From assembly GCA_002794775.1 (NCBI GenBank), contig NBAY01000088.1:1-64000 (forward strand): 64,000 bases of DNA, written 5' to 3'. Positions 1-55,157 of this stretch are shown piece by piece (within the stretch, counting starts at the first letter, position 1; every line of letters starts with the position of its first letter). Position numbers and translations under genes: made by a program. The DNA comes from Porodaedalea pini (taxonomy: Eukaryota > Basidiomycota > Agaricomycetes > Hymenochaetales > Hymenochaetaceae). The notes below the pieces were generated by a model. It saw only the letters and a list, made by a program, of their open reading frames with translations. It was not told where the DNA came from and ran no database searches.

Positions 1-796
1 ATTGGTGCGCGGGAGGGTGTAGGGACATACTGGACGGGCCGGGTGCCGCTGCGGAGTACGAAAGAGAGGCAGCGCTGGCGCCCGCGTCGAGTATGCGCGG
101 GGAGAATGACTGGCCGTTGTTTGACGAGCCTGAACCTGAGCCTGAGCCGGTTGGTGAGTGGTACGATGCAAAGCCTCCATCTGCACCGCCGACGTCGTAC
201 CCGAAGCTTGCATCCCCTCCAAACTTCTCTCCAAGCGCAGCATGCGCGTTCTGTCCAAGAGCGTCATATGTGGAGTCATACGGCTGCTCGACGTCGAGCT
301 CGTCTTCCGCGCCTTCGAGCTCGCGGATGCGATCCTCAAGCTTCGCGATCTTCTCCTGCAAAATCTGCGTGCGGCTCTTCTGCCGCCCGTCGTCGTAGTC
401 GCACTCCTCCGCGCGGTTCGCCTTGACACACTGCCGGCAGACGGGTTTTGTCGCGTCGCATTTCTATTTGTAGGTGGGGTGATGGGGGATGGGATGATGA
501 GGAAGAGAAAGGAGCGGTCGTCAGCAACTTGCACAAGAACAACTAAATGGAGTGCGCGGTACCGGGCTCGGTGAGGAGCGGCGATGGGATCGATGGGAGG
601 CAGGCTAGTAACTCACCATTTTACGCTTCCTGTGATGGAGTTAGTACTGAGTATAAAGAGACGAAGAAATGGAGACGGACCTGCAGCTGAGGCACGCCGA
701 GCCGCGCTGGAGCGGGTTGCCACTCTTGCGCGCCGCGCGCGCGTCCTGCTCATCGGTGTCCGACTGTGTCGTCGTCGCCGTCCTGTCCAGTGGCAT
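1..796 (-). CDS. Zn2Cys6 transcription factor, 5' part only
   Basis: Fungal binuclear zinc-cluster regulator that would bind DNA in the nucleus; targets unknown. I read three exons on the minus strand: 796-681, 629-617 and 463 down to the window edge. Joined, they give the six-cysteine cluster CX2C-X6-C-X6-CX2C-X8-C with the basic RKRKMK stretch between cysteines 2 and 3. The 13-nt middle exon encodes part of that basic stretch, and both introns have GT and AG ends and keep the frame. A predicted coiled coil (QEKIAKLEDRIRELEG) follows, then a Gly/Ser-rich linker. The frame stays open to base 1, so the fungal_trans middle domain lies outside the window. The start ATG at 796-794 is the first in frame before the cluster. 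Confident on family, not on orthology. Confidence 0.88.
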
Positions 797-2137
797 CTTG
801 GTGGTTTGCGGACCCCGCAAGAGGTGTTGGGTTTAAGTAAGTCAGAAGGGGTGAGTGTGCGATATGCCGATGGCAAGCGGGGTATGTGTGCACGCTAAGC
901 TGGGTGTGCACCCAGCGGGGGAGGGGATGCTCCGTCGTGTTCTGTATTTGAGCAAGTGGAAGCATCGAGGGCGCTGTTAGGACACCGTAAAGAATAAAGA
1001 CTGAGATCTACAGATGGCACGTGCACAACTCTAACCCGAGTCCGCCAGTCCAATCACAACCAAACACCGCCGCACCCTCTCTAGATACTATCTCTTGCCA
1101 GCCTATCCATCAGCTCGAAACATTGCCTTGTTCTTCAGCTGCACCGCTTCTCCAATCCGCATCATTCTCTCTGTTTCGTTCTTTTCTCGCTTTTTTCAAT
1201 GCGTTCGACTGTTCGCGCCGACCTGCCGACGGCATACCTGTCTAAAAATGGAGGATGCTCTCGAGCTTCTCTTGTCTTCCCTGAAACGCACCTCGGCAAC
1301 CTCAATAACGCAACCCTCCGACGAAAGCGCGCCCCTCGATCCATGTTCCTTAGCACGCGTCCCGTCCTTCAGACAGCCTGCTGCATCCCGAGACATCACA
1401 TCCGCTGTAAATTACCCATCATCTCGTCGCCCCGTCCAAACCCGCGTAAAATAACTCGAAACACATCGCGTCGTCTACATATGTATTTCTTTTTTGTCTG
1501 ATGCCTGATCTACGTTACTAGACCGTTTACGGGCGACCGCCATGAGCTTAACATACTGATATGTGCGCATCTTCGTGGGACGACGACGCATACGTATGCC
1601 CATCAGCTGCGTATTTCGCCCGGCGTGATCTCAACGAATTCGGTCGTGATCGCCAAGCGAAGCCCTTCGTGGCGTGGGACGTATATCTTTGCGCCATAAA
1701 GTACTGTGCTCCGTACATAGCTTCGAACGTGGCGAATGGTTGTCTCGGCCCTGACCTTTGCGAGGATTCGAACTGCGAGAAGTCGCACCGCAATGGCTTG
1801 TGCCCACGGCTAACAACGTCTCAACGTCCCACGAAAAAGCTTGCTCGCTGTGAAGCGCATCTGAGATGAAGTGCAGTCTCAGCTAGCTCTCGCATCAGGA
1901 ATCCAATGAAAAAAAGCAGAATTGAACGCGTGCCGACACACGTACTACCCCCCCCCCCCCCTCTCACTTCTCAACCAGACTCGAAACTTTCTTCAATGCA
2001 CCGCCCCCTTCTACTGTGTTTCTCAATTTCAAACTCCTGTAGTTCAAACACTAGTACTGGGGCCTCGCACAAGCGTACGCGCACCCGACGGCCTCCGTCG
2101 CTCGTCCGTCGAGTCATGAGGTGTTCTTTCTCTAGTC
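797..2137. other. Intergenic, no supported gene
   Basis: No reading frame here has recognisable domains, and the short open frames in several registers look like chance in GC-rich DNA. It contains a run of 14 C at 1948-1961. It should include the promoter of the minus-strand zinc-cluster gene, but no clear TATA element was found. Confidence 0.6.
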
Positions 2138-2989
2138 AGATTACAGCCATTTTCATAAGTCCTGCGACACGTGCATGTCACGTGAAGTGAGCCGCGTCAG
2201 AGCCAAAATGTCGAAAAAATAGAATAAATGTTGATTTTCTCTGTAAATTCTGCACAGTACCTGCTCATTAAGTACTCAAAAAAAAAGGCATGGTTCTCAG
2301 GAGCAGAAATATGTAAAATATGGAGCAATGCATTGACTGTGTAGGTGGGTAGAGATCAAACAAGTGCAGCCAGTCTGTTCTCTCACACATTTCCACTGAG
2401 ATTCAAAAATTATGGCTCCCCTACATCTACCTATAAAATTCTTTCCTGTATCTGTAAATTAAGTATATGACTATACCAACATTTCCTGCAAGTTTGAAGC
2501 CAATCCATTCAGTATTCATGGTGCAGCAGCAAGGTTTGTGTTCAACTTTGAGCTCTTTCCATCCTTGCAGCATGACCAAGAGTGGAACACAAACCTTGCT
2601 GCTGCACCATGAATACTGAATGGATTGGCTTCAAACTTGCAGGAAATGTTGGTATAGTCATATACTTAATTTACAGATACAGGAAAGAATTTTATAGGTA
2701 GATGTAGGGGAGCCATAATTTTTGAATCTCAGTGGAAATGTGTGAGAGAACAGACTGGCTGCACTTGTTTGATCTCTACCCACCTACACAGTCAATGCAT
2801 TGCTCCATATTTTACATATTTCTGCTCCTGAGAACCGTGCCTTTTTTTTGAGTACTTAATGAGCAGGTACTGTGCAGAATTTACAGAAAAAATCAACATT
2901 TATTCTATTTTTTCGACATTTTGGCTCTGACGCGGCTCACTTCATGTGACATGCACGTGTCGCAGGACTTATGAAAATGGCTGTAATCT
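2138..2989. repeat. Giant inverted repeat (hairpin), ~405-bp arms
   Basis: The left arm 2138-2543 is the near-perfect reverse complement of 2585-2989, separated by a loop of about 41 nt. The outer ends read AGATTACAGCCATTTTC and its complement. The few mismatches seen include CpG to TpG/CpA changes, for example CACGTG against CACATG near the outer ends. The arms carry no long reading frame. This fits a foldback element or palindromic MITE. A TA dinucleotide sits symmetrically near each end (TA-CAGCC and GGCTG-TA), compatible with TA target duplication, but the symmetry extends 4 bp further, so the true ends are uncertain. Confidence 0.85.
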
Positions 2990-3158
2990 TCTCGAGTCTC
3001 AAGCTTCATCTCGGATCTCAATGATAAGGGGCAACTCTTTAATTATTGCAGTTCGCAGTGATCTCCCTACTGCTTTCGTGGGTATGTGCCAGCTTCATCG
3101 TACCTGTGCATGTGGCTTCGAGTTTCTAATGAACACACCCGCACTCACAGACTCATTA

Positions 3159-3297
3159 GTGCCCGCTCGGCTGCATGGGTTAGCTAACTTTTGTCTGATG
3201 GGAAATTTGATTTGATGGGGACCCTTGAGCTAAACCCCCGGTTAGCTAACTTTTCCCCACCAGAATGTTAGCTACCCTGTGCAGCCGAGTGGGCCCC
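3159..3297. mobile_element. MITE with TA target duplication
   Basis: A 139-bp element with terminal inverted repeats of about 30 bp. The left end starts GTGCCCGCTCGGCTGCA; the right end in reverse complement starts GGGGCCCACTCGGCTGCA; both run on to a shared GTAGCTAAC/GTTAGCTAAC. It is bounded by TA at 3157-3158 and 3298-3299. Internal copies of GGTTAGCTAACTTTT add further symmetry. No coding capacity. A Tc1/mariner-type origin is possible because of the TA, but is not proven. Confidence 0.65.
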
Positions 3298-3782
3298 TAG
3301 GTTATATATGGATGACTAGCTTTGCAATGTGTCAAACTTGAGAAGCTACAGAGAAAACATTGAATAAACAAGGTTGGTGTACATGCTTCATGCAAAATAA
3401 TTTACTGGCCACGCCTAGTTCTATGTCTCTGAAATGTGCCTTTGAGCTAGTCCAAAGCCAGGAGACATGGTGTGTCTCTGCTTTCCATGCCACATTCTTA
3501 ACTGGCCTCTTGCTAGCACGACATGAAGGGCTGTAATCCATCAGCGAGCCAAGACACCAGAATCCAGAATGCAATGGTGCAAGATGGGGCTCAGAGTTAA
3601 GAGACCATCAAAATCTGCAAAGTTGATGGAGGACCGGAAGAGTTTGGCTCTGATCCAAGTTTAGACAATTCCTTGGATCATGAAACTGTGATCACGCTTC
3701 ATACACCTAATCCTGGTGTGCAAACATGATCCTTTGCTTATTGATGGCCACTCAGGGCTTTACGAAGACCCACGTGGAGTGC

Positions 3783-3788
3783 TTATAA
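3783..3788 (+). promoter_or_regulatory. TATA-like box upstream of the interrupted gene
   Basis: TTATAAGAG lies about 65-70 bp before the ATG at 3852, followed by a pyrimidine-rich stretch. The spacing is usual for fungal core promoters. The sequence 3300-3782 before it shows no gene. Confidence 0.45.
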
Positions 3789-5299
3789 GAGAACGAGGAT
3801 ACCTTTAGTTCTCATTGCTTTTCAACCCATCGAGCACACCGCTACAGCACTATGCCTAAGGATATGAGTACTGCAAGCACCACACCATCAAAGAACACAT
3901 CAAGCACATCCGGAAGAACTAGTACAGACTCCCCACGCTCATCACATCAGCGAGTTTTACCAGAAGAGACGTTAGAGAGGGAATACAAAAAAATCGATGA
4001 TATCAATCCCGGCGATGTAGTCTCTGGACCGACCCCTGGACTACGCGAGATCAACAAGAAAATTGACTTCAAGTACTCCTCTACCGGGGGTGTTCAAGGC
4101 TCTCAATTCCATAAACAAATCATCTTAGGCAAGACAGGTGATGGTCGGCTGAGAACCGTGATGCTAACGAGTTTGGGCAGCCTGAAGATAGGAGAGACCA
4201 TCTGGGATCGGTGGCCAATGCAAATGTTTGTGAAAGAAGAATGGGGACAGAACCATCAGGAAAAACCTCCCAGTGGAATATCATGGAATAATTTTAGAAT
4301 AGAAAGAAAATTGTAGAATAGTTTGGAATGGCATTAAAACGGGTTTGGACCCTTGGAATTGCACAGAATTTGCACAGAATTGAGGAACTGTATTTGGAAT
4401 TTGCTGGAATTGGCAAGGTGGTTTGTGGAATTGCACAGAATTGAGTAGAATAATAAAATTGTATTGGAATTTGCTGGAATCGGCAAGGTGAGTTATGGAA
4501 TGAGCCAAAAAAAGTTATAGCAAATGTGGCATTTGAGCACCTCAGAAACTTGTAAAATCCATATCTCACTCAATTCTTAACAGAATCAGTTCAAAAAAGT
4601 TGCTTAATTTATGTTTCAGTGGCTTCTAAATTTATGTGAGCTTAGTGGACAGAAGGTGGCTAATTAAGGCTGCAGTAGTGAGAATAGGTGTTTTCCCAGC
4701 AAAACTCCTTCCTTGATTTTTCCTGAGCTCAATTTTGAAGCGAATGACATGAAACTTGCTGGAGAATGGTCTGTATACTATATTGTTGATTTTATGAGGG
4801 CTGAACTAGAGTGAATGTCTCTTGTTCTGCTTGACTGTTGTGCTGAAACTCAAATTTGCTTGACTCAGACAGTCTTCAAAAAATTCCCTGAATTGTTATA
4901 AGCCATCTAAAATTCAATATAAATTATACATACCATTCTCCAACAAGTTTCATGTCATTAGCTTCACAATTGAGCTCAGGGAAATTCAGGGAAGGAGTTT
5001 TACTAGAAAAACACATATTCTCATGTCTGCAGCCTCAATATTCCATATTCTGTCCTCTAAGCTCACATAAATTTTAGAAAACATTGAAACATAAATTTAG
5101 CAACTTTTTTGAAGAGTTTGTGTGAAGAATTGAGTGAGATATGCTATATTTTGTACTTGGAGGCACTTCAGGTGACAAAAACTGCTAAGTCCAATCCTGG
5201 ACACGTCGTCCACAGAAGAGGTGTGGGAACTTGATCACGTGTATGTTGGTTTTGGCACAACACGCCACACATCGCCTTCACATCTGCTACCACTCTACT

Positions 5300-5833
5300 A
5301 TGTCTGGTGCTGACGTCTTACAGAATGTCTGAAAAAACCCTCGATTGCACCCACTGCAACCATCACACACAAAGTGGTAGCCTCGCCAGCTGCCTGGTGG
5401 GACACACTCACTGCCGCAGGCAACATGCCATCCGAGTTCTGACTTTCAACTTATTAGAACGCTCGTCTTCAAGCTGAAGACCGTAAAGTCTGCCGCAACA
5501 GTTCCTGTTGTTGTCATTGCATGCATCACTGGACCTGCTAAAAGAAAATTTCACGTTGAACAAGGACTCCCATGAGCACAGTCTCTTTATCTGTCCACAC
5601 GCATTGTTAAAGTTCATCCACTTTCACCATTAGCACTTGACGCAAACACGTTCCCAATTGCCATGGTTCTTGGTGCATCGCTCACATCATTGACTTCCCT
5701 CTTTGCCGTACATGCACTTGCCTCAGATTTTACTGTCTTCCTCCCTGGAACCACCATTACTTCATACTTGCGTGCTCTCAAAAATGGGGAGACCAAGCTT
5801 CACAAGTTAGATTTTGTGGAACTCAAGGCTGAG
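5300..5833 (+). pseudogene. Captured prolyl-tRNA synthetase, N-terminal part
   Basis: Begins at ATG 5300 (MSGADVL..). Across broken frames it keeps the signature of the YbaK-like editing/appended domain found at the N-terminus of fungal ProRS: SPAAWWDTLTAAGN, LVFKLKTVKSAATVPVVVIA, LALDANTFPIAMVLGAS and FTVFLPGTTITSYLRALKNG. Several frameshifts and stops make it non-functional. It stops at the gypsy insertion (target site CTGAG) inside the end of this domain. The same start and first ~70 codons occur in copy 2 at 42867, so both transposons inherited one capture event. Confidence 0.75.
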
Positions 5834-6265
5834 TGTTAGGACTCGAACCTTTCCTTTCTTTTATTTTCCTTTTATCGTTTCTTTTCTTTTAATCGCTCCT
5901 TTTCATTATAATTAATCATCTTTTCAATCATTTCCCACACTCCTTTCACATGACCTTCATTCATTCCATTCCAAGTTACATAAACTATATAGTACTTAGA
6001 TAATCCAGTCTCACAATTGGCGCGAATAAAAGGTTCGAGGAACTCGCATGAACACTTGTTCTGCTTTTCCTCTTACCTCTGCAATGACCTAGGTGAGACT
6101 GCGTCCCCTCCTGTAGTAGTGTATATTGTACTAATCCTCTTACCTCCGCGATGACCTAGCCTGAGTATAGCGTGTCCCGAGTCCCCACTCGAGTATAGCA
6201 TGTCCCAGACGACAGTCAGCTAAGGCCTGCCCAGTCCGAGTCGTCTCCCGGACTCCCACCTAACA
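5834..6265 (+). repeat. 5' LTR of the gypsy element
   Basis: Starts TGTTAGGACTCGAACC and ends CCCACCTAACA. It matches 12704-13135 along its full 432 bp with about 13 differences counted by eye, all transitions and several at CpG sites. A decayed solo copy of the same family lies at 59991-60341. Confidence 0.95.
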
Positions 6266-6684
6266 TAAAAGCAGAACCCCACCCAGGCTCATCCCCAGTG
6301 TATGTCGTTGCTGTCGACTCGCCTTCACTCAGTCTAGAGGAGCGCTCCCCTCGACAGACTTGAAGTGTAAACCCCCTAAACGACAACCCTCAACCCTGCC
6401 CAGACATTTTCGGATGTTCATGTATTACGTAAACCCTCCAACCGACTCTTCCCAACTATTACCGCATTTGGACACCAACTCGACCTCGGGCAAGCTGACG
6501 CCCTGATTGGAAAACTCTCTCCCACCCTGGCTCTCCGCATCTCCCTTTGGTGGAGAAGCCACTTAACTTGGACGTGGGTGACGTTACGTGTACAGTCATC
6601 GACGTCGTTGTCGATTGTTATCACTGTCGCCTCCTTCTGTCTCATTATCAATTTTGCCGATGAACCCGTTCAACGTTGGCGTAA
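6266..6684 (+). other. Leader of the gypsy element
   Basis: Untranslated region between the 5' LTR and gag. The bases just after the LTR (TAAAAGCAGAACCCC) should hold the primer binding site, but I could not match them to a tRNA 3' end. Short open frames here show no known domain. Confidence 0.5.
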
Positions 6685-9107
6685 CCCTGGATCGAATGCG
6701 CAACCGATCCCTGTCCCTCTGCCATCGTCAAGATAGATCTCACCGACGAACAGCAACAGGCCCTCCCTGCATCAGCCCGTTGGAATCCAGACCGACCAAG
6801 TTACGTCGTGACCAACAACAGTGGCATTACATACGACATCTGGTGGAGTGAGATCCGGCATAGCTGGTATTCAACAAACGAAGAAGGAAGGAGAGCTAGG
6901 TGGCCCCCAGCCATCCCATCGTCACCTGCACCATCAATGTCCACCGTCAACTTACCACCGACTCCAGGACCCTACCGCAAGACTCAGAGAGATCTTTCAC
7001 CGCCAACCCCTCCTGAACCTTTGATGCCTACACCCGAACCCGCAATGTCAGCAGGAGGTTTCAGTCAGCAGCAGATGGAACAGATCGCGGCCATCGTCGT
7101 GAACGCCTTTGCCCATCAGGTGAACAACACCCCGGCACCAGTTGCAGCAGCTAATCCCCCGACCCCCAACATCGACGTTGCCCGGTGAAAGGTGACGGTA
7201 CGGGTCTACAGGCTGACTCGGACCTGGTTGAGTTCGGCCACTGGGGGTTCACTCTAATGTGTCTGATGGAGGGGATAGTGTCAGGAAGTGTAGGGAAGTG
7301 TAATAGAATACTCGGGGCTAGGTGTCGACTCGAGGACGCGAGTACAAAGGATGACCGGCAAAACGTGCCTAAATGCGGTCGGAGAACAAAGAGCAACTAC
7401 GATCTTGACAACCCGGGCTCGTAAACTCGCCAGTGAAGACAGGAATCGATACTATTCGTCGAGACGATTCTGAATCTGAAAAGACCTCGAGACGCGATGC
7501 AGAATTGACGGAGATATAGCAGTTGCACTGGTTGCGGCTGGCGGAACGCACGGAACTCCCGGAACCAAAAGCTATTTTCGTAGCTCTACGACGCGGGCTC
7601 GGAATCGTGCAAGAAAAGACAGTGTTCGAAAGCGATTTTTGAGGAAATTAAGAATCTGAAGAGAGCTCGGGAAACGGATAAGAACTGAGGGCGATATAGC
7701 GAAAGCAAGATTTGGCCGAAAACGGGACTCGAGACGGAACGGACGGAACGACACTGAACGGTGACGGAGACGAGAACTAAAGACTGGGACTGACTCAGGG
7801 GAACTAAACTTGTATTTTTGAGACATTTACATGAGTGTTTAAATAACCAACAGAGGTTTGAGCCTCTGAGCGGCGTACAAAGGACACAAAGACAGACCGG
7901 AGGCTCTAGCCAAACAACACCAAATAGCCGGAACTTGAGAACATGAGTAATTAAGCTTTGGGAGGCTCGGAACAATACCAGATGTGACCCAAAACGGACT
8001 TCGGTGGCTCACCAGTGCAGAACCAAGCTGTATGCGTCGAGTTAATACTGCCAAACACTGAAACTGTCCTGAAATGCGTCGGGGATACTTGTAAGACTGT
8101 CCTGAGTTGAGTCGAACCTAATAGAGCCGATTCCGAGGCCAGCGGCATCGGGATCTCCACACCGGCCACGTGAATTCACTGGCGGCGACGATTATCTAGA
8201 CTTCAAACGTGAGGTTCTCCTCTTCGTCTCCGCAAACCCGAATCGATACCCCACATCGGAAAGTAAAATCTACGTGGCTCTCTCCTACCTAAAAGGTGGC
8301 AATGCGGCGACGTGGGCACAAAACTACGTGGAGGAGTCGACGACAGCAGGCATCGTAACCTTCACCGACAGTTGGACAAGGTTCCAAGAGCGCCTAGATG
8401 CCTCATTCGATGACCCGAACCGGAAGGAAAAAGCGTTAGCGGAATTCCGAACCAAGGTTCAGAAGGACCTCACCGCTGACGAATTCTTCCAGAAGCTTGA
8501 CGTCATCATCATGAGAGCAGGATTGATGGACGACAGCATTATCTGTGACTGCCTGAAGCGTGTGATGAACATCGAGGTGGTCCGTGGAGTACTGAGGTCA
8601 ACGCCGGTCCCAACGACATATGACGCCTGGAAGAAGAAGGCCATTGAGATCGATCGGGGTGAACAGCAGATCTGTGCAATCCAGTGAGGTCGCACGTTTC
8701 CACTTCCACCACGCCAGCCTCAGCAGCAGGCACCCCTGGCTCGCCGTCCGATCGCAACCCCCCACGTTGACAAACACGACGTGACTGGCACCACCTTCAG
8801 AGGGGCTGGCCAGCCAATGGACATCTCAATGAATGAGGCACAACGGCGACAGGCGTGCTGGATCTGTGGCAAGCTCAGTCATTTCAAGGACGCATGCCCG
8901 CAGGGGAAGACGATCGTGCAGCATATGCTGCAGATGATGGCGCCCGGCGAACGTCACCTCCTCGCCGATGAGCTAGGAGCGATGAAGGAGTCGGCCTTTG
9001 AGGAAGTCGTAGACACTCGAAAGATGACGGTGGAGGACTATGTGGAGGAAGAAGGTGATGACAAAGAGGTCGTCGACTCGCAGGATTTTGCGAGTGGTCA
9101 GGCGTAG
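6685..9107 (+). pseudogene. gag: gag of the gypsy element, interrupted
   Basis: Capsid-type protein. The N-terminal part is open from 6685 to 7188 with no obvious ATG; a Gln-rich stretch (DEQQQALPASARW) and Pro-rich linker are seen. After the insertion 7190-8169 the frame resumes at about 8172 (EFTGGDDYLDFKREV) and runs through the retrotransposon gag fold, with conserved-looking ALSYLKGGNAATWAQNYV and RTKVQKDLTADEFFQKLD. A TGA at about 8684 follows ICAIQ. A CCHC zinc knuckle (CWICGKLSHFKDAC) lies at 8856-8897, and the frame stops with TAG at 9105. The two halves are in different phases, so one more base change is needed beyond the insertion. Confidence 0.8.
7190..8169. mobile_element. ~980-bp insertion in gag, probable solo LTR
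   Basis: This stretch separates the two halves of gag and is flanked by GTGAA at 7185-7189 and 8170-8174. It has no coding frame. It contains two related purine-rich blocks (GGGCTCG..GAATCTGAA.. around 7410-7490 and 7590-7660) and a TTTAAATAA box near 7840, features often seen in LTRs. Clean TG..CA ends at the duplicated site were not found, so the class of element is uncertain, while its being a foreign insertion is well supported. Confidence 0.6.
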
Positions 9108-12100
9108 CCACCAGGGCGACTGACCGAGAAGAACAAGGGGCCTCGTATCCGGACTCGATAAAATATAACCAACCGTCTGTACAATACGTAGATGTAAATG
9201 ACGTTGATGGTTTTTCCGATTACAAAGTCCCCACCGGTGTGAACAAAGAGAACGAGTATGAACAGCTGTTCATGAGGGGAACTGGCAGACGCCAGCTGGA
9301 CCTCCTCCTGAATGTCAGATACAACATGGAGAATGAAGCGAAAGAGGTGGATGTGCATGCCCTCGTGGATTCGGGGTGTACAGGATCATGCATTGACATG
9401 AGGTTCGTCGAACGGTATGGGTTGGAGACCAAACGTTACATCAGACCCCTCACGGTGCTCAATGCGGATGGCACGCACAACGAGGCTGGTTTGATTGAGA
9501 AATATGTTGACATCGAGCTGATAATTGGACACCACAAGGAAAGAATTGTCCTTGCGGTAACATCCCTGGCATCGTCAAACATCTTCCTCAGCTACGACTG
9601 GCTTCGATGACATAACCCGGAGGTTGACTGGAAAGCGGGTTTAATTGAATTCACCCGTTGCCCAGAAGAGTGCACAATCGAAAAGGAGGCCGTGGAAGAA
9701 ATGAGGAGGGTGAGAGAAGTGCGAATGGACAAGGTGTCCTGGCCCACATATCTCAACAACTACGCCGACGTCTTCTCGGAGAAAGGATTCGAGAAGCTAC
9801 CGGAACACTGCCCCTGGGACCACATCATCGACCTGAAGCCTGACTTCAAGCCTAGCGACTGCAAGATCTATCCATTGACACCAACGGAACAACAGTCGCT
9901 AAAGGACTTCCTTGAAGAGAACCTGAAGTCGGGCTGTATACAAAAGTCGATCTCATCGATGGCATCACCTTTCTTCTTCATCAAGAAGGCCGATAAGTCC
10001 CTACGCCCAATACAGGACTACCAGAAGCTTAATGAGGGAACGATCAAGAACAAGTACCCTCTCCCCCTCATTGACGAACTTGTTGACAAGGTCAAGAAGG
10101 TGAAGTTCATCACCAAACTTGACCTCCGATGGGGATACTACAATGTCCGGATCCGTGAAGGCAATGAGTGGAAGGCAGCTTTTCACACGAATATGGGTCT
10201 CTTCGAGCCGACAGTCATGTTCTTTGGTCTTTGCAATGCACCGGCGATGTTCCAGGCCTTTGTCAACCACATCTTCAAGGGACTAATCTACGATAACTTG
10301 ATCATCGTCTACCTCGACGACATCCTCATCCTCTCACAAACTCTTGAGGAACATATCGAGACGTCAAGGTGTGTTCTTCAGATCTTGCAAGAAAACAGTC
10401 TGTACCTGAAGCCAGAGAAGTGTGAGTTCGATGCCAAGGTCATAAAATACCTCGGCCACATTGTCAGTAATGGCGAGATCAAGGCTGACCCAGCAAAGAT
10501 GGAAGCGATCGCAGACTGGCCAGTCCCGCAAAACCTCAAGCAGCTGCAACAATTTCTCAGCATGGGCAACTGGCTGTGACAGTTCATCAAGGACTACAGC
10601 AAGGTGGTCCATCCGCTAATGTCGCTGACAGGCAAAAAGGACTGGGTATGGGAGACTGAACAGCAAGAAGTGTTCAAGGAGTTGAGACGACGTCTCTGCT
10701 CACCTCCAGTCCTGGCCATCACGAACGATGAGGGCCCTTTCCGCGTCGAAGCGGACTCATCAAACTTCGTGCTTGGTGGCATGTTGTTGAAAAAGCAGGA
10801 GGGCAAGTGGAGGGTAGTCACCTACAGGTCCGAAGTGCTTCTACCGGCGGAACGAAACTACGAGATCTACGACAAGGAGATGCTCGCGATCGTTTCGGCA
10901 CTCAAGGAGTGGAGGCAATACCTTCTTGGTGCCCGTCACCCTATTGAGATCTGGTCTGATCACACCAACCTCACCTACTTCAGGTCGGCGCAAAAGCTGA
11001 GCTATCGACAAGCTCGCTGGCGGACAGAACTCGAGGAATTTGACTTCCACCTTGAGCACAAGTTGGGTAAGACAATGGGCAAAGCGGACTTACTGTCACG
11101 CAAGACCGGCTACGATGAAGGGAAGGATGATAACAACGGCATCGTGTTCATCAAGGAGAAGTGGCTGAATCGTGGAGTGGTGAGGACATCACGTGACGAA
11201 GTGTTGGAACGAATGGGTGAAGCGCAGAGGGCGCAGAACGAGTCGGAGAGGCCGACAGGAATGACAAAGGTCGACGGTTTGTGGCGGATGAAGGGCAAGG
11301 TATACGTCCCATCGACAATCAAGGAATCAGTGTTATGGGAGTGTCACGACTCAGTATTGGCTGGGCATCCAGGAGCGTCAAAAACGGTGGAACTTGTCCA
11401 TCGAGACTTCTGGTGGGTGTCGATATTCTCTGACATCTGAGCGTACATCCGAGGATGTGATCGCTGTCAGCGAACAAAGGCTCTGAGAGCGTCGAGGTCG
11501 AGACCACTCCATCTGAATACGGTCCCTGAAGCCCCTTGGGAAATCGTCACAGTCGACCTCATCGGAGAGCTTCCAGAATCGAAGGGACACAACACGATTT
11601 GCATCTTCGTAGATAGATTCTCGAAGCAGATGCATGCGATTCCGATGACAACGAAGCTGTCAGCAGAAGGCATGGCTCAGTTGTACCGTGACCACATCTT
11701 CCGCCTCCACGGCCTACCCAAGAAGATTATCCATGACCGTGGCACGCAGTTCAATGCATCAATGATGAAGGAACTATACAAACTCCTGCACATTGAAGGC
11801 AACCTGTCGACAGCATATCACCCACAAACAGATGGTCAGACAGAATGCATTAACCAAGAGCTCGAACAGTACCTTAGGCTCTTCGTTGACCATCGGCAAT
11901 CAGACTGGAAGGACTGGCTCCCTCTCGCAGAGTTCGCATACAACAACTGCGAACACTCAGTGACAAAGATGTCTCCCTTCTATGCAAACACAGGACATCA
12001 TCCTCTGAGCTTCGACACGACATGGACTTCATCCACTAACATGTCGGCAGAAGAATTTGCAAAACACATCAAGGAGACTCATCACGTTGCGAGGGACAAC

Positions 12101-12622
12101 CTGGTCAAGGCAGCTGATGACATGAAGCGCTACCAAGACCGGACAGCAGGGGTATCGGTGGAGTACCAGACTGGCAACAAGGTCTTCCTGGATGGTTGGA
12201 ACATCAGCACAGACGCGCCAACAAAGAAGCTAGCAGACAAGTGGTACGGACCCTTCAAAATCATCGACAAGGTGGGTGCGAACACGTACAAGCTCAAACT
12301 CCCCAAGCAATGGAAGACAGTCCACCCTGTCTTCAATGAAGCCCTGTTGAAACCCGCCATTGAACCATCCTTTGAAAGCCAGAAACAACCTCCACCACCA
12401 CTGCCCGACATCATTGACAACGAGGAGGAATATGAGGTTCAGGAAGTTATCGACTCATGTCTGCACCGAGGAAAGCTACAGTACCTCGTCAAGTGGGTCA
12501 GATACAATGAACCGATTTGGCAGCCAGAGACGGACTTCGGCGAGAACGCAAAGGAGGCGATCGTGGAGTTCTACCAGAAACACCCTGGCACTCCTCGAAA
12601 ACTCAACATTCCTCGCCAATGA
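9092..12622 (+). pseudogene. pol: pol polyprotein of the gypsy element with three stops
   Basis: The frame opens about 15 nt before the gag stop in the -1 phase, suggesting frameshift expression of pol. Domains in order: aspartic protease with LVDSGCTGS (Asp codon at 9368); reverse transcriptase with VYLDDIL (YLDD at 10310-10321); RNase H with DKEMLAIVSALKEWR; integrase HHCC zinc finger (HDSVLAGHPG, GCDRCQ); DDE residues at codons 11555, 11735 and 11843; GPF motif (KWYGPFKI); and a C-terminal chromodomain near 12431-12585 (YLVKWVRYNEPIWQPE). Stops at 9608, 10577 and 11438 are all TGA where CGA (Arg) would fit. Ends at TGA 12620-12622 just before the 3' LTR. Confidence 0.93.
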
Positions 12623-12689
12623 CTCCATCCACTCTTTGTAGACACCGAGCCAGACGACCACGATCTTGGTTGGTCGGGACGCCCAACCT

Positions 12690-12703
12690 TGAGGGGGGGG
12701 TAA
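12690..12703 (+). promoter_or_regulatory. Polypurine tract of the gypsy element
   Basis: GAGGGGGGGGTAA directly precedes the 3' LTR start at 12704, the expected place for the plus-strand primer of reverse transcription. Confidence 0.8.
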
Positions 12704-13135
12704 TGTCAGGACTCGAACCTTTCCTTTCTTTTATTTTCCTTTTATCGTTTCTTTTCTTTTAATCGCTCCTTTTCATTATAATTAATCATCTTTTCAATCA
12801 TTTCCCACACTCCTTTCACATGACCTTCATTCATTCCATTCCAAGTTACATAAACTATACAGTACTTAGATAATCCGGTCTCACAATTGGCGCGAATAAA
12901 AGGTTCGAGGAACTCGCATGAACACTTGTTCTGCTTTTCCTCTTACCTCTGCAACGACCTAGGTGAGACCGCGTCCCCTCCTGTAGTAGTGTATATTGTA
13001 TTAATCCTCTTACCTCCGCGATGACCTAGCCTGAGTATAGCATGTCCCAAGTCCCCACTCAAGTATAGCATGTCCCAGACGACAGTCAGCCGAGGCCTGC
13101 CCAGTCCGAGTCATCTCCTGGACTCCCACCTAACA
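12704..13135 (+). repeat. 3' LTR of the gypsy element
   Basis: Starts TGTCAGGACTCGAACC and ends CCCACCTAACA. Followed by CCGAG, the partner of CTGAG before the 5' LTR. It is the same length as the 5' LTR, and only transitions separate the two. Confidence 0.95.
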
Positions 13136-15090
13136 CCGAGGCTTATTTTCAAAAAGGAGCTATGATGGAGAAAGGGCATGCATCTTCGCATGTCTTTCGC
13201 ATAATACAACTCCTAATATGCTTTGCATGGAACAGCTACTCCCTCAGAGACAGTGCCTCCTTCGCTGAGCAAGCCTCCAGCACAACATTTGATCTCATTG
13301 GTGACGACGGTGTTGCAGGTCGATGCTGCCATAATACACAACTCAAATGGGGCCAGAAGAAAAATAAGTTTGTAAAAGGCAATGGTGAAGGTGCGGACAA
13401 CATGAAAATCGTAAAGACGGAAGGTGGAAGGCGCCTTCCCGTGACATACCACAGTGGACGTTACGGTGAGTGGAAGGCGAAGACGCTGCGGCGCGCACGT
13501 CTGCAATTGCCGCATAGGAAGATGCAACGAAAGAGGAAGGGATAACCGACGGCGCGGTGAAGATTGCTATTGGCGTGAAGAAAGAGGTCAACTTTCCGGC
13601 TTGGTATATGAACATGCGTTGGTTGTTCTGTAATCCCTCACTTTGTGCTGACAAGTATTATAGGCGCTGATCAGGGTCAATATGACATGCGTCTTCAGAG
13701 GGAGCTCTGAGCTTGAGGAGCCCATAGTAATCCGTCCGACTACAGAAACGGCCATGTATCCCTACTACACCAAATGGATCAAGAGCTGTCGTGATCTACC
13801 CCTCAAGCCCAACCAGTGGATCAGTGTTGCACGCTGTGAGTTCAAGAGCCCCCAGCTGTTCCTCCATACGTGCAAATTCCTATGGCAGGAAGGCCACACT
13901 GCGCATCTCACAAAGGAGGCTGACACTGAAGTACAGGAAATTCTCAATCTACATTGTCGCGTGTACGAGGAGCCGCTTACTGTACCCATCATCCCAGGCG
14001 TCAAGTCCGAGAAGGAGAAGTTTGCCGGTGGTCTTTACATGACGACCGTGGAAGGCTTCATTCCAATGACCAGCCATGGCATCCGGGCTGCGATGTCGCA
14101 TTGCCTTGACCAAGACTTCTCACGGCCAGAGATGTTCAACATTGTGGCTGAAGACCTGGACGATCCGCAGGGTACAGGTCTGAATGGTGGCAAATTATTG
14201 TGTGGTAGAAGTCGTGGGGCCTTAACACGCGCACGATCGGAATCATGGTTGTGATTCATGGCGACAACCAGGGTCTTGTTCTCCCATCACTCGTCGCTCG
14301 CATCCAAGCAATCGCTGTCCCCCTGCGATATCACCATGTGCACTAATAAGCAGGAGCTCGTGAAGATGCTCAGGAAAGCCAGTATCTGCACAAAGGCGGA
14401 CATACAGGACAGCTACACTCCTGGCTACAAGTTCAACGACTGGGATCAAAAGTTGCGAAATTTCAATTATTCCTTATTTCTTGGTTTTCCTGTCATCTTA
14501 CAAATGGCTTTTTGTCTGGTGTGTGCCACTTCGCCTCGAACTCTGTCCGATCGACATCCAGAAGAAGCAAACACTTCCTGTGCGATGTGGTACAGGCGTG
14601 AAGGCACCAGTAGCACTCGCAGAACTGGAGACTGCAGTACCTGGACTTCCCGAGACTATCCAACAGGAGATGTTTGAGCGCATGAAGGCTTTGCACACTC
14701 TGTACATGTCTCACCTGCATGTCATAACCAAATGAGACAATGTTGTGCTGACACTCGACAGCAAATATGTTGCAGTCCTTCCACGGTGCGAAGAGAAAGC
14801 GTGCGAAGATGACATCAAGGAGCACAGTGGACGCAAGTGTGTGTTTCCTCTCCTTCCTCCACTTTGCTAAAGCGAGTGAACTGACCATTATCCTATTCTA
14901 CATAGCTCGGAACCATAAGACATATGCGTGCCATCTGCAGGCGCAAAGTTGTGTGCCATTCCCTTCAATCAGGTGCAGTACCCACCCATCGAGTCTGGCA
15001 CCAATAGCGCTCACAGAACTGGAGACTGCTGTATCTATGATCAGCATTGTGGCTCTTATTCACGGTGATCTTCCTGTGTGTGCTCCATGA
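13136..15090 (+). pseudogene. Captured prolyl-tRNA synthetase, catalytic and C-terminal parts
   Basis: Decayed class II synthetase. About 13545-13620 keeps ITDGAVKIAIGVKKEV and FPAWYMN. A large deletion follows, and the best stretch is 13697-14200 with ELEEPIVIRPTTETAMYPYY (motif 2 area), FLWQEGHTAHLTKEAD and SEKEKFAGGLYMTTVEG. After 14250 come [57 protein letters not shown] and, after an intron, the EPQD..APSAGAKS end. Introns are still present (for example 14840-14900), so the capture was from DNA, not from mRNA. Stops, frameshifts and loss of a splice acceptor (TCTG where copy 2 has CCAG) make it non-functional. Confidence 0.82.
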
Positions 15091-16172
15091 CCTGTTTGTT
15101 AAGTAGGTCGAGTAACTACAGACATGTATGGAATGAGTACGGAATAGCATAATTTATATTGAAGAAAAATCGGAATACATGAATAAACAATGAAGAAAAA
15201 GTGGAATGCACAAATAAATGATGAAGAACTACTGGAATGCACTAATAAATGATGTGAATGCTAAGAGAATACTAGAGAAAGTCTAGGATACAGGTGAAAA
15301 ATGATAGAATACCACAGAATACGGAATACCCTTATAGAATCTGCCTAGTATGGAATCAGCCGGAATCACCAGCTGATTCCGGCAATTCCGCTATTTTCCG
15401 CCGGGGAGGTTTTTCCTGATGACCTTGAGTACTTTGTCCCACTGGAACCTGGGGAAGTTGATACCGACTATAAGAAGTACAATCAGCCGAACGTAGTAAT
15501 CAAATACGCTCCAGGCTCTGCTCAGCTGCCAATAGCACAATGGGCATTTGTTGCGAAACAATTCACATGTCGGCCTCTCGATGGCAAAGACGACGGAAAG
15601 GTATGAACTGTTCTAGTTCATCTTCAAGTCCTTGTTGATCTAATCAACGGTTTCGTGTCCCACAGTATTCAGTCGTTAAAGGAGTAAAGGTTTCAGATGC
15701 CTCCGTGAGAGAACTCAAGGAACTCGTAGATGCGAGCCAAATTAGACTGAAAGCTGCAGAACTCGACCCTGCGGGGGAGTCTAGTTCAGGCAAGGTAGAG
15801 GCAGAGAAAGAACCGGCTCCGAAACCACTGAACAAAAAGGATAAGGGGATTGCAATGACAAAGAGCTGGAGATGGGGGGATGAAAGTACCCAGAAGCCCC
15901 TACATAGTGGAGGTGGTGAGAGTACGGGAACACCGCAGAAAGCCACCCGAAGTGGGGACGGCAAGGCATCTCCAGTATCTTCCAACCCTTCCAGGGAAAT
16001 GCGAACACCTGCACATCGCGGTGGGGCACAAGAAGAAGGTTTGAGTCGAAGCTTTGCGAAGGTTGCGATTGCACCTCCATCAAAAGCACCGGAGAAAGAG
16101 AGAAGTAGTGGCAAGAAGGTATTTCGGCTTGGAAGTAGCAAATCATCCCATCCACGGTCTGAGGGGAACTAA

Positions 16173-39979: not shown

Positions 39980-41805
39980 CGCAGACGGAATCGTTGTCGG
40001 AGGGGATTCTGGGTGTGTCTGGGTGGTGTCGTGCGGGTACACTTAGGCTTTATAGTAGCTGGCTGGATAAATATAGACAGACGGCATGAGACGGAGACTC
40101 ATTAGAGATATGAGCGCTGCGTAGCAGTGAGTGTGCTGAGTAAAGCCGATCTGGTATTATCACAAGTACTTACTAACGTGCCAGTGGGCTTTGATGTCAT
40201 TCGCACATCACACTTTCTCAAGCGCTGCTGTGAAGAGAAAAACCTTGAGTCACGGGGCGAGGCGTCGATCCGTATTTCAAACTCAGATCAAGCTTCCAAT
40301 GAGACAGGCCTAGGCTTCCTTGTGTCCTACATTAAACATTGAGGCAAAGTCTACATTGTGATATTTAGGTCAAGATGGTAATTGCAGCATTATTGATGGG
40401 GACTTCCAGATCCATTTACATGGGTTCAAGATTGTGAAGGGGCAAAATAACCAGAGCAATCTCACAAGGAACTTGAACTGACAAATGGTAAGCTTTTTGC
40501 TTCATTCACCTTACTTCATACACAAGAGTGTGTCTTTAGGGTTGTCTCATATCTATGAGTCTCAGAGAAACTTTGCCAAGAACATTGCTCATGTTTGTTG
40601 TGCTTTGATGGGCTTATATTTTCTCAGATTCTATTGCTTTTGGCTTGCTCATTCTTTCTCATCAAGGCACCACAATGGCATTGACATGGACACACAGCTT
40701 TGCACTCACATAAAAACAAATCAAGCTACCCAGATCCCATATAAAACTTACATTCATCTCTTTTAGCCACACTACTCCTAGGCAGTGCCCTGAACATCTC
40801 ATTTGGTACTTCAAATTCCCTGTCAGTTGTGACTAGTTTCACTATCTGTGTTTCACTGCCACAGAACACCCTCTTCACTATATCAATCCTAGGACTCTGA
40901 TGTGCACTGGCAATACAGACACTATCTACTGGAGAAGTCTAGTGCACTCTTCCCTTGTGTGACAACTTGAATGGAAGAATCTATATAGGACATCACATTG
41001 GCTAAGATTCAAGCGATAGACCAGTCTATTCATTCATCCTGCCATAATGGAGCAGTTGATCATCACTCCTGTTGTATCATGGAAAAATTGTACATGATGT
41101 GCAGGGCTGGGATTCAGACAATGGCAGTGTTGGCTTTATGCAATATATAGTGGAGAGGCTAATAAGATGTCATCAGATGCTCAAGTAATATGCAGTGGCT
41201 CATTCCTCACCTCTGGTGAGTAAAGTACAAATATTCTAGGATGTCCAAGCATGTGTCACTCCTTTCAACTCTTTCTCATGCTCCCTTTGATTCATATTTC
41301 CATGTCCTTGTTGAGGAGATAATGAGAGGTGCAGAAATTCATGGGTCATTCAGCTCCATACATAATAATCAAAGACTTATTATAGATAAAGAATATATGT
41401 GGAGAAGTGCCGCAATGAGATGCTAGCTGATGTCATGAGTGCAAATGCACTTTGAGGTTGGACCGTTCCTCTTTATTGACAGGTTTTATTTCATACTGAA
41501 CAAGACTAATAATATGATGCAGGGGTATCTACGCTATCTGATTCATGGGGACTACTGTATTGTGCATCCTGCTTCTCTCTTGATGTAGCTTTCACATTCC
41601 ATGGATGGGTATCAGCCTACTGATGCAATGCATTTGTATGAGAGTGCTTACTGCATCACAATTTACTGAAGTATATTTTTCACAGATACAATTCTTCTCT
41701 TCTAATGGTACAGAAGCATAGAACCACTGTATACATCTCTAAATACAGGCAGTGCAAAAAGGTCTTGCCTCATATTAAATTTATAGGGCAAGTTGAATCT
41801 CTCTT
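39980..41805. other. AT-rich gene-free stretch
   Basis: Contains the promoter of the minus-strand oxidoreductase, then about 1.7 kb of CpG-poor sequence with only short chance frames. It ends at the second gene-carrying transposon. Confidence 0.5.
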
Positions 41806-42866
41806 CATCAGGAAAAACCTCCCAATGGAATATCATGGAATAATTTTAGAATAGAAAGACATTTGTAGAATAGTTCGGAATGGCATTAGGATGGATTTGG
41901 ACCCCTTGGAATTGCATGGAATTGAGTAGAAAAAAGGATCTGTATTGGAATTTGCTAGAACCGGCAAGGTGGTTTGTGGAATTGCACGAAATTAAGTAGA
42001 AAAATAAAATTGTATTGGAATTTGCTGGAATCGGCAAGGTGAGTTGTGGAATGAGACAGAAAATGTTATAGCAAATGCAGCATTTGAGCACCTCAGAAAC
42101 TTGTAAAATCTATATCTCACTCAATTCTTCACAGAATCAGTTCAAAAAAGTTGCTAAATTTATGTTTCGATGGCTTCTATAATTTTGTGAGCTTAGTGGA
42201 CAGAAAGTGGAATATTAAAGCTGCAGTAGTGAGAATAGATGTTTTTCCAGCAAAACTCCTTCCTTGATTTTTACTGAGCTCAAATTTGAAGCTAATGACA
42301 TGACACTTGTTGGAGAATGGTCTATATATTATATGGTTGATTTTATGAGGGCTGAACTAAAGTGAATATTAATGTCTCCTCTTGTTCTGCTTGACTGTTG
42401 TGCTGAAACTCTCAAATTTGCTTGACTCAGACAGTCTTCAAAAAATTGCCTGCATTGTTATAAGCCATCTAAAATTCAATATACATTATACAGACCATTC
42501 TCCAACCATTTCATGCCGTTAGCTTCAAAATTGAGTTCAGGGAAATTCAGGGAAGGAGTTTTGCTAGAAAAACACATATTCCCACTACTGCAGCCTCAAT
42601 ATTCCATATTCTGTCCTCTAAGCTCAGACACATTTTTGAGACCATTGAAACATAAATTTAGCAACTTTTTTGAAGAGTTTTTGTGAAGAATTGAGTTAGA
42701 TATGATGTATTTTGTATTTGGAGGCACTTCAGGTGACAAAAACTGCTAAGTCCAATTTCCCACACCTGGATGCGTCGTCCACAGAAGAGGTGTGGGAACT
42801 TGATCACATGTATGTTGGTTTTGACGCGGCGCGCCATACAGTCTTCACATCTGCTACCACTCCAAT

Positions 42867-43085
42867 ATGTCTGGCGCCGATGTCCTTACAGAACGTCTGA
42901 ACATACCCTCGATCACACCCACCGCAACCATTATGCACACAGCAGTAGCCTTACCGGCTGCCTGGTGGGACGCACTCACTGCCGCAGGCAACACGCCGTC
43001 CGACTTCCGACTTTCAACTTGCTCATCTTCAAGCCGAAGACCGTAAAGTCTGAACTTCTCTGCACTGAACAAACTGTCAAGTGAA
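42867..43085 (+). pseudogene. Captured prolyl-tRNA synthetase, first exon part
   Basis: Starts MSGADVLTERLNIPSITPTA and continues WWDALTAAGNTPSDF, then in a shifted frame LIFKPKTVKSE, matching the N-terminal YbaK-like domain in copy 1. It breaks off at about 43085 where eIF4G sequence begins. Confidence 0.72.
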
Positions 43086-43094
43086 AAGTGCTTC

Positions 43095-44830
43095 ATGTGC
43101 TCGACGTCAATGAGTGGTGGGCACGGCGGCCTTCCATTCGCAGGCGGGCGTCCATCGCCTATGGTTCGCTCTTCCAGTCAGGTGGCGCGGGCGCTGTGGG
43201 CAACAAGCGTACGCGTAGGAAATGTGGCTGCTCAACACGCAACGAGTCGGACCGTATCAGTGCTTCTGCCAATCAGTCCAACGTGAATGCTACTTCCTCC
43301 TTCAAACACGTCGCGCCGAGCAGTCTGCGAACCGCTGGGTCGCGGGCAGCACGTCCAGGTGTGGGGCCTCAATTGACACAGATTCACCCGAGATTGTGGA
43401 CAAGAAAGTCCATTTGCTGCTCAACAAGCCCACTATCGAGAAGTTGTAGTCCATCTCAAACCAGATCATTGCGTGGGCAAACAAAAGTGAGAGCGTGAAG
43501 GATGGGCGTACGCTCATTCAGCTCATTCGGCTTGTGTTCGAGAGGGCGACGGATGAGGCGGCCTGGAGTGAGATGTATGCTCGCTTGTGCCGTAAGATGA
43601 TGGAGCAGTCCAGTCCGAACGTGCAGGATGATGGTATCCGCAATGCTGAGGGCAAGCCGATTACAGGTGATCTGCTTTTCCGTAAGTACCTTCTGAATCG
43701 CTGTCAGGAAGACTTCGAGCGCGGCTAGACGCAGAAGGAGTCGATGGCGGCAGCGGCTCTCGTGAAGGCGACAGAGGATCAGGCTGTTAAGGATGCCAAC
43801 GAAAAGGAAGAAAACAAGGAGGCTTGCGAGAACGCGCTGTACTCGGACGGATACCACACTGCACAGAAGGCCAAGCGTCAAGGTCTCGGACTCGTCAAGT
43901 TCATCGGTGAGCTCTTCGATCTTCAGATGCTCACGGAACGTATCATGCATGAGTGCATCAAGAAGCTGCTCAACAACGTCGACAATCCCGAGGAGGAAGA
44001 GATCGAAAGTATATGTAAACTACTGACAAGTGTTTGTCAGGCGCTCGATACCTCTTAAGGCTCGCGGACACATGGACGTCTATTTCAGTCGGATGAAGGA
44101 GCTTGCGAAGAGCAGCAACGTGTCGTCTTGTATGCAGTTCATGTTACAAGTGCGTACCCTCTGTTTCCTAGCCTTTCGTTGAGCTGACTTTCTTGGACAG
44201 GATGTGATTGAATTGCGGGAAAGGAAATGGACTACCCGCAACTCGGTCGCTGCTCCGTCGACAATCGCTCAGGCGGTACGCGCTCTTGCTTTGTTACTCG
44301 ATTTCACTTGAGCTTACCAATATACAGGCCACGAAAGAGAAGGCGCAACAGGAGCAACATAACTTAGCGCGGTCGGCCATGTCTCGCGGTGGTTCACGCC
44401 GTGGCCATGATCGTGACGGAAATGTTCAAGTCGGTCCCGATGGATGGGCTGTCTTCTCTGGCCCTTCGAGGCCTGCAAACGAGGCGGGTGATCTGACGAA
44501 CTCTGGCAAGATTCAGAAGGGCAGTGGCACCATGAACTTCGAACCCACTAGCGTCTTCACGAAGAAGGGAGACAGCAAGCGCGACAGTGCGAGCCTTTCA
44601 AGGACGAGTTCGAACACGAACATGTTCCAGATGCTGCAGGCCGCTGAGGCCGCTAATGAGGCTCCTACTGCATCCTCGTCTCGTCCAAGTCACCCGTCAA
44701 GCCGTACAACGAGCGTCCACTTGACCCACAACGCACCTGTGGAACCTGCCCAACCTGCTCAGCGTCCCAGACTCAACCTGCTTCCCCGTTCGAAGCCCAT
44801 GCAGGAGAAGTCGGAGAATAGTCGGCGCGA
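43095..44830 (+). pseudogene. Captured eIF4G segment with MIF4G domain
   Basis: Piece of translation initiation factor eIF4G, the scaffold binding eIF4A and eIF3. It opens with a Gly/Arg-rich part (MSGGHGGLPFAGGRPSP), then ANRWVAGSTSR and DTDSPEIVDKKVHLLLNKPT leading into the MIF4G domain: ISNQIIAWANKSESVKDGRT, ARLCRKMMEQSSPNVQDD, ITGDLLFRKYLLNRCQEDFE, AKRQGLGLVKFIGELFDLQM and LTERIMHECIKKLLNNV. It continues to DVIELRERKW and SRGGSRRG. Two introns remain (44150-44200 and 44275-44329). Stops at 43447 and 43724 (TAG where Trp TGG fits) and a 1-bp shift near 44056 inactivate it. It ends inside the factor, where ProRS sequence resumes. Confidence 0.85.
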
Positions 44831-44839
44831 AAATTCAAT

Positions 44840-45420
44840 CATTCCTTATTTCTCGGTTTTCGTGTGGACTTACAAATGACTTTTTGTCCAGGGTGTTCCA
44901 CTTCGCCTTGAACTCGGTCCGGTTGATATCCAGAAGAAGCAAACACGTTCTGTGCGACGTGATATGGGCGTGGAGGAGACTCCCGTACCTGCACTTCTCA
45001 AGACTATTCAACAGATGTTCGAGCGCACGAAGGCTCTGTACACTCTGTATATGTCTCACCTGCGTGTCGTAACCAAATGGGACGATGTCGTGCCGACACT
45101 CGACAGCAAATATGTTGCAGTCCTTCCGTGGTGCGAAGAGAAAGTGTGCGAAGACGACATCAAGGAGCACAGTGGACGCAAGTGCGTGTCTCCTCTCCTT
45201 CCTCCACTTTGCTAAAGGGAGCTGACCATTATTCTATTCTACATAGCTTGGAACCACAAGACGTACGCGCGCCGTCCGCAGGCGCAAAGTCGTGTGCCAT
45301 TCCCTTCAATCAGGTGCAGTACCCACCCATCGAGTCTGGCGCCAATAGCACTCGCAGAACTGGAGACTGCCGTATCTATGATCAGCATTGTGGCTATTAT
45401 TCACGGTGATCTTCCTGGTG
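44840..45420 (+). pseudogene. Captured prolyl-tRNA synthetase, C-terminal part
   Basis: Matches the end of the ProRS copy at 14465-15090, starting within an intron that still has its CAG acceptor (..TTGTCCAG). Readable blocks are VPLRLELGPVDIQKK, ETIQQMFERTKALY-like, VTKWDDVVPTLDSKYVAVLP and WCEEKVCEDDIKEHSGRK, an intron to 45246, and LEPQDVRAPSAGAKS. A stretch of about 30 bp present in copy 1 (ALAELETAVP) is missing at its first place but present again near 45345, in both copies. This is the C-terminal zinc-binding region of eukaryote-type ProRS. Confidence 0.78.
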
Positions 45421-45952
45421 TGCTCCATGACCTGTTTGTTAAGTAGGTTGAGTAATTACAGACATGTATGGAATGAGTACGGAATAGCATAATTTATATT
45501 AATGAAAGTTTGGAATATGCAAATAAATGAGGAAGGAAAATCGGAATACACAAATAAACAATGAAGAAAAATTGAAATGCACGAATAAATGACAAAGAAC
45601 TACTGGAATGCACAAATAAATGACATAGAATACTAGAGAAAGTCTAGAATACCACGGAATACGGAACACCCTTATAGAATCTGCCTAGTATGGAATCAGT
45701 CGGAATCACCGGCTGATTCCGGCGATTCCGCTATTTTCCGCCGGGGAGGTTTTTCCTGATGTTTTAGCCTTATTTTAAAATATATATTAGAACTCATTTC
45801 ATCTCTTACACTACAGAGCATGGGTTCTTATACAGTATAGATAGTCTCTTCATGGAGGCCTACAAGCCTATAGAGTATGAAGAAAAGACATGTTCTTCTG
45901 AGGGAGTTACAGACTAAACTTTGGTTCAGAGGGGTGATGCAATACTTTTTTT

Positions 45953-54958: not shown

Positions 54959-54960
54959 AC

Positions 54961-55150: not shown

Positions 55151-55157
55151 GTAAACT

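Follow-up and report, generated by a model that had tools for sequence, protein, structure and literature searches.

What are the two related elements at positions 4254-15421 and 41806-45761 of a 64,000-nucleotide stretch of Porodaedalea pini DNA (contig NBAY01000088.1 of assembly GCA_002794775.1; hereafter the window), and how did pieces of translation genes come to lie inside them? A sequence-only reading had described two elements with identical 18-bp terminal inverted repeats (TIRs), similar arms and 2-bp flanking repeats (AC, TT), which contain decayed, intron-bearing pieces of prolyl-tRNA synthetase (ProRS) and, in the second copy, of eIF4G. It proposed a Pack-type family that captures genes at the DNA level. 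The genome-wide analysis supports this proposal and makes it more specific: with a probability of roughly 0.92, both are non-autonomous cut-and-paste elements of the Plavaka superfamily (PlavakaB type), acting as Pack-type elements with ProRS and eIF4G cargo taken from genomic DNA.

The 18-bp tip, CATCAGGAAAAACCTCCC, has four perfect copies in the window, which form two inverted pairs (chance expectation 0.06 at three or fewer mismatches). Flank comparison revealed dinucleotide target site duplications (TSDs), AC at 4252..4253 and 15422..15423 for element 1 (W1) and TT at 41804..41805 and 45762..45763 for element 2 (W2). When the 53.3-Mb genome was searched with the 18-mer at two or fewer mismatches, 133 forward and 134 reverse copies were found (267 ends, a count that includes duplicate or allelic contigs), compared with none for the reversed control. 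Contig C127 matches the window, and C24 and C71 are apparent counterparts, as judged from matching coordinates only. Twenty paired elements were fetched and compared together with the two window elements. Subfamily A (W1, L032, L033, L037 and the longer L038 and L045) carries ProRS cargo; subfamily B (W2, L040, L042, L044, L046, L047 and L049) has the order ProRS, eIF4G, ProRS, its six other members agreeing with W2 at 98.6-99.1% along their full length; and the nine elements of subfamily C carry eIF4G and rearranged ProRS. Similarity to ProRS stretches is present in all 22. In L038 and L045, the extra DNA resembles nested transposons by eye. Together with five further pairs from end loci for which both flanks are known, 25 of 27 pairs have matching 2-bp flanks, whereas the flanks match in only 5 pairs at k=1 and in 1 at k=3; a pair on contig C36, added afterwards, is flanked by TA/TA.

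Both of the joined flanks that were searched, those of element 1 and L032, led to intact empty sites, the kind of evidence that the sequence-only reading had called for. The joined flank of element 1 matches contig C127 at 97% over all 150 bases, and the longer alignment (99.38% over 1775 nt) is gap-free across the junction. C127 may be the other allele, since a further stretch of 1229 nt on it agrees with the window at 100%. A paralogue of the site on C50 (L059) is likewise unoccupied. Removal of element 1 together with one AC restores an open reading frame on the forward strand, the left part of which (3789..4253) is in frame with the right part (15424..15606). For L032, the joined flank matches C62 at 94% over 150 of 150 bases, and the alignment, over 117 nt, is gap-free across the junction.

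The identity of the family is indicated by larger elements with the same ends. A 13.5-kb element on contig C7 has the same tips, an AA/AA duplication and a Plavaka transposase split over two open pieces (E=1.2e-76 and 1.6e-23 for PF18759). PF18759 matches 64 places in the genome, and by coordinates some of these also lie inside three intervals bounded by such tips, of 11.7 kb on C36, 20.6 kb on C6 and 25.2 kb on C3; among the matches listed, none falls inside the 22 compared elements. The transposase is closest among named proteins to one from Sanghuangporus, and the closest named protein to ProRS is from Athelia; both genera belong to the Agaricomycetes. Three groups of arms occur near transposase matches, all with the 18-bp tip in common. 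Arms of the C type bound the C6 interval, matching L031 at 95% across 189 nt on one side and with 91% across 157 nt on the opposite side, and are also present at an end on C40 beside another transposase match. A second group consists of the ends at C7, C3, C36 and C26, and a third of C45 and C52, which are single ends lying roughly 9 kb away from a transposase match. Termini of CATCA..TGATG with 2- or 3-bp duplications characterize PlavakaB (PMC12730594), and the present family has the same termini and 2-bp duplications. The transposase in larger elements with the same ends and the agreement of these ends with PlavakaB (PMC12730594) point to non-autonomous Pack-type Plavaka elements. As in Pack-TYPE elements, the compared copies combine TIRs, TSDs and host gene sequence with empty sites and the lack of a listed transposase match. 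A Helitron, which has neither inverted repeats nor a target duplication, is ruled out by the TIRs and TSDs.

Element 1 spans 11168 bp. The ends assigned to it earlier (4254..15421) stand, but the segment 5834-13135 does not belong to it: element 1 proper is 3.87 kb long and is interrupted by an unrelated Gypsy-type long terminal repeat (LTR) retrotransposon on the forward strand (5834..13135; LTRs 5834-6265 and 12704-13135), recognized by reverse transcriptase, integrase and chromodomain matches. This 7.3-kb insertion has the target duplication CTGAG/CCGAG, and its unoccupied site is present in the sister copies L032, L033 and L037. Without it, element 1 measures 3866 bp, near the 3956 bp of element 2. 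The two LTRs are identical at 419 of 432 positions. Element 1 is missing from the 99.4% identical site on C127 (L058), yet the LTR pair nested in it shows 13 differences in 432 positions. Element 1 and the retrotransposon may have travelled together as an 11-kb composite; every one of the 13 differences is a transition, which suggests that C>T decay may inflate the apparent age of the LTR pair.

In element 1, the left TIR (4254..4271, forward, a perfect 18-mer copy) opens an A-type left arm (4254..4521, forward) rich in GGAAT/AGAAT motifs, followed by a fold-back region of inverted arms (4560..5143) common to subfamilies A, B and C. The ProRS pieces, all on the forward strand and placed by alignment to the host gene, lie at 5278..5520 (the 5' piece, host 554-790), 5523..5827 (host 858-1165, including intron 1), 13486..13684 (host 1182-1381, including intron 2) and 13683..14998 (host 1677-3009, including introns 5 and 6), with a second small piece at 14997..15029 (host 2623-2655). 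The A-type right arm (15030..15421, reverse) ends in the TIR at 15404-15421. Element 2 has an A-type left arm (41806..42078, forward, including the TIR 41806-41823), a fold-back region (42108..42706) and, again all forward, a ProRS 5' piece (42841..43052, host 550-762), an intron-containing eIF4G piece (43053..44823) identified by domain match and alignment, a ProRS 3' piece (44829..45339, host 2477-3009) and a second small ProRS piece (45338..45373, host 2623-2658), before the A-type right arm (45376..45761, reverse, including the TIR 45744-45761). GGAAT/AGAAT motifs are concentrated in the outermost few hundred bases of the three elements for which positions were listed (W2, L050 and L033). 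CACTA-type elements have subterminal repeats, which this clustering resembles.

The source genes are present in the same genome. The host ProRS gene (contig C57, L053) is intact, encoding 719 residues when spliced, with six introns. Element 1 aligns to it over a stretch that begins just 5' of the start codon and reaches host position 3009; it keeps four of the six introns whole (1, 2, 5 and 6) and has a deletion between about 1381 and 1677. The junction of this deletion (host about 1381/1670-1688) recurs in seven of eight aligned elements; the eighth, W2, is without the region. Captured introns sit within continuous alignments at about 80-91% identity to the host, in agreement with the intron-bearing ProRS pieces first noticed in both elements. 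The host eIF4G gene (contig C33, L057) has, in the part that was read, long open exons with MIF4G and MA3 domains; the piece in element 2, anticipated by the sequence-only reading, contains MIF4G and corresponds to host positions 1311-3097 at 91% identity. Across the genome, a 109-residue eIF4G query matched 89 places, some of which are two pieces of one locus and one of which is the host gene, and a ProRS family model, for which 58 of 455 candidates were scored, yielded 68 matches; duplicate contigs contribute to both totals. The cargo of the 22 compared elements is one amplified ProRS lineage, in some copies with an eIF4G-ProRS cassette, and not a sample of many host genes. An HMG-box gene lies directly inside the C-type ends L002, L003 and L015, with 95-96% identity to window positions 34938-36166. 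It was rejected as a third captured gene and is read as a nested insertion, since that stretch is itself a dispersed repeat. The HMG-box-encoding repeat occupies 34545-36166 and 28900-29961 in the window, with 40 matches scored of 126 candidates across the genome.

Comparison by region suggests how the subfamilies are related. Internal positions 1-273 and 3230-3956 of element 2 match A-type elements, and the tested C-type elements share only short stretches there; for positions 274-3229 the nearest relative is a C-type element. Within 274-700, identity is 93% to L041, 91% to the A-type W1 and 86% to L031 and L050. Judged by these region-by-region matches, element 2 is a mosaic in which a core largely of the C type has been placed between the A-type arms of a different subfamily. 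Type C appears as a ProRS 5' piece joined to an eIF4G-ProRS cassette that is also found in a separate class D (L056 on C71 and L068 on C31). Class D contains eIF4G and ProRS pieces, and in L056 also a PRP3 piece; in the stretches read, it has no 18-bp tip (best match, five mismatches), and at C31 the cassette is flanked on both sides by LTR-element sequence. Its ProRS lacks the A-type deletion and has a smaller gap instead (host 1513-1573). A reading that is given very little credence is essential-gene camouflage: ProRS and eIF4G pieces would be favoured as homology-based silencing of the element would hit the essential host genes too. In that reading, the difference in ProRS junctions between the A core and the D cassette would point to at least two captures of ProRS, and cores would have passed between Plavaka lineages with dissimilar arms, the ends of which are alike in little beyond the 18-bp tip.

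Other origins of the two elements and their cargo have to be weighed. The two regions might be parts of one larger segmental duplication with incidental ends; the similarity of the elements, 88% and 85% across their two common stretches, and the near-identical duplicate contigs of the assembly, such as C127, would agree with this. The flanking DNA of the two elements is unlike, however, and the 267 dispersed ends, the regular 2-bp duplications and the clean empty sites at both tested loci refute such a duplication, leaving it next to no probability. A single duplication with no other copies, or a lack of empty sites, had been named beforehand as outcomes that would overturn the Pack-type proposal, and the opposite was found in each case. 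Arrival of the cargo as cDNA or by retrotransposition, like histone H3 in a fungal hAT element, could be suggested by the LTR retrotransposon in element 1 and the LTR-element sequence around the C31 cassette; it was rejected as very improbable, since introns are kept in both the ProRS and the eIF4G pieces.

Whether the captured pieces are maintained as functional cargo, under selection for truncated ProRS or eIF4G proteins, depends on how they decay. Many copies have eIF4G open frames of about 280-380 amino acids, and NG86 ratios of nonsynonymous to synonymous divergence (dN/dS) are below 1 in most comparisons (0.47-0.78 between subfamilies B and C), although the transition bias of the changes may have lowered these ratios. 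In 15 eIF4G copies (six B and nine C, with L040 left out), variable sites are nearly even over the three codon positions (42:53:56), as they are in 15 ProRS copies (83:82:90), 14 of which have stops in the host frame. These codon-position counts speak against selection, and functional cargo is kept as a minor rival that is unlikely to hold. The phrase "carrying essential translation genes" from the sequence-only reading applies to the presence of ProRS and eIF4G pieces, but not to their condition: from their sequences, the captured exons look unconstrained and the gene pieces decayed rather than working. In the eIF4G copies polarised by the host, C>T or G>A changes account for 97 of the 147 two-state sites. 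By context, C>T changes affect 58 of 180 CpG sites compared with 39 of 420 non-CpG sites (CpA 18/150, CpT 16/157, CpC 5/113), a concentration that fits methylation-driven decay. A different question is whether the cargo came from a related gene, in another lineage or as an old paralogue, and not from the present host genes. The eIF4G synonymous divergence (dS) between host and copies is 0.22-0.27, well above the copy-copy values of up to about 0.10, and the fixed eIF4G differences between host and copies are biased to third positions (9:9:39; Fisher p=7.9e-5 against the variable sites). A constrained host branch alone would also yield such a bias, and the ProRS contrast is not significant (8:4:13, p=0.13). 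A related-gene source is held to be unlikely, though not negligible.

Several observations weigh against the identification of the family as Pack-type PlavakaB elements with decaying cargo. Two of the 27 pairs, L034 and L040, are without a matching duplication, and empty sites were sought at two loci only. Where ends close to transposase matches were examined, A-type arms were seen on no copy that holds a transposase, the A-type end on C93 pointing away from its nearby match; the autonomous partner of the window elements is thus inferred from the 18-bp tip. The PlavakaA/B placement is based on ends and TSDs and not on a tree. Finally, in most of the pairs compared, divergence is lower in the eIF4G exons than in the upstream non-coding stretch (11-15% of columns are variable as against 17%, and about 2% are gapped as against 5%), which favours functional cargo and misfits a fully neutral decay unless the rates or the ancestry vary along the element. 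Mosaic ancestry together with transition bias may explain both the low exon divergence and the dN/dS values below 1.

For the Pack-type Plavaka elements, the following course of events may be proposed. Transposase from the larger copies would act in trans on the small elements, recognizing the 18-bp tip and perhaps also the GGAAT-rich arms. One ancestral capture of ProRS would have been amplified, with the eIF4G-ProRS cassette added later; ectopic recombination, gene conversion or template switching could then have shifted cores between differing arms, producing element 2. The capture itself may have come about through repair or template switching, or else through the remobilisation of adjacent insertions, a route that has been proposed for the Pack-TYPE elements of plants.

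Other features of the window were also recorded. A long palindrome at 2138-2989, with arms 99% complementary, recurs inside two end loci of the family with the 18-bp tip (L019 and L026). A 196-bp near-perfect palindrome at 54958-55153 belongs to an element that starts with CTGCCCTTTTCAGAAGTATTGTCACAC and is flanked by TA; the ends of that element also bound, by eye, a 2.9-kb insertion in L045, and related copies occur in L025. An open frame at 31457-32455 has a fungal transcription factor domain (PF04082).

The findings show that Pack-type capture at the DNA level, involving more than one gene, also takes place in a fungus and within the Plavaka superfamily. A single genome here holds together the transposase-bearing relatives, the source genes, the empty sites and the decay spectrum, and movement of cores between differing arms makes the acquisition and exchange of genes by such elements testable. 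They also carry a warning for annotation, as many of the stretches that resemble ProRS or eIF4G in genomes of this kind can be cargo of transposons.

The sequence-only reading knew of no similar fungal examples with these ends. Transduplication in fungi has in fact been published (PMC3538342, PMC6710886), and ends of this kind are those of PlavakaB (PMC12730594); what appears to be new is capture by Plavaka. Host-gene capture by non-autonomous Plavaka elements was found neither in the passages on Plavaka that were searched nor in the literature listings, which does not prove its absence from print. As far as searched, the Plavaka superfamily, the intron-bearing multi-gene cargo and the exchange of cores are new. 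Published PlavakaB elements share with the present family the CATCA..TGATG termini, the 2-bp duplications and, in larger copies, the Plavaka transposase, and may carry an extra gene (TET/JBP, CMCT clade; PMC12730594). The elements described here are instead non-autonomous derivatives with decayed pieces of host housekeeping genes, of which the available portion of that account makes no mention. In the hAT elements of Pyrenophora and Pseudocercospora, histone H3 has been transduplicated (PMC3538342, PMC6710886), so that there, too, a housekeeping gene was taken up and multiplied by a DNA transposon of a fungus. That cargo is intronless, was inferred to be transcript-derived and has decayed by repeat-induced point mutation (PMC6710886), whereas in P. 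pini the carrier is Plavaka and the cargo is intron-bearing DNA of two genes with CpG-enriched decay. Gene cargo in DNA transposons of a basidiomycete is also known from the Helitrons of Pleurotus ostreatus, which are rolling-circle elements and, according to the part of the report available, have no P. ostreatus gene fragments in intact copies (PMC4289320). A parallel in organization is provided by the Pack-TYPE elements of plants, Pack-CACTA included (PMC8903248): they likewise have TIRs and TSDs, lack transposase, contain host fragments, sometimes from several source genes, and share DNA between elements. Those elements are from plants, the word fungi being absent from the main text of that paper, and the present ones are from a fungus and belong to a CACTA-related superfamily with 2-bp duplications.

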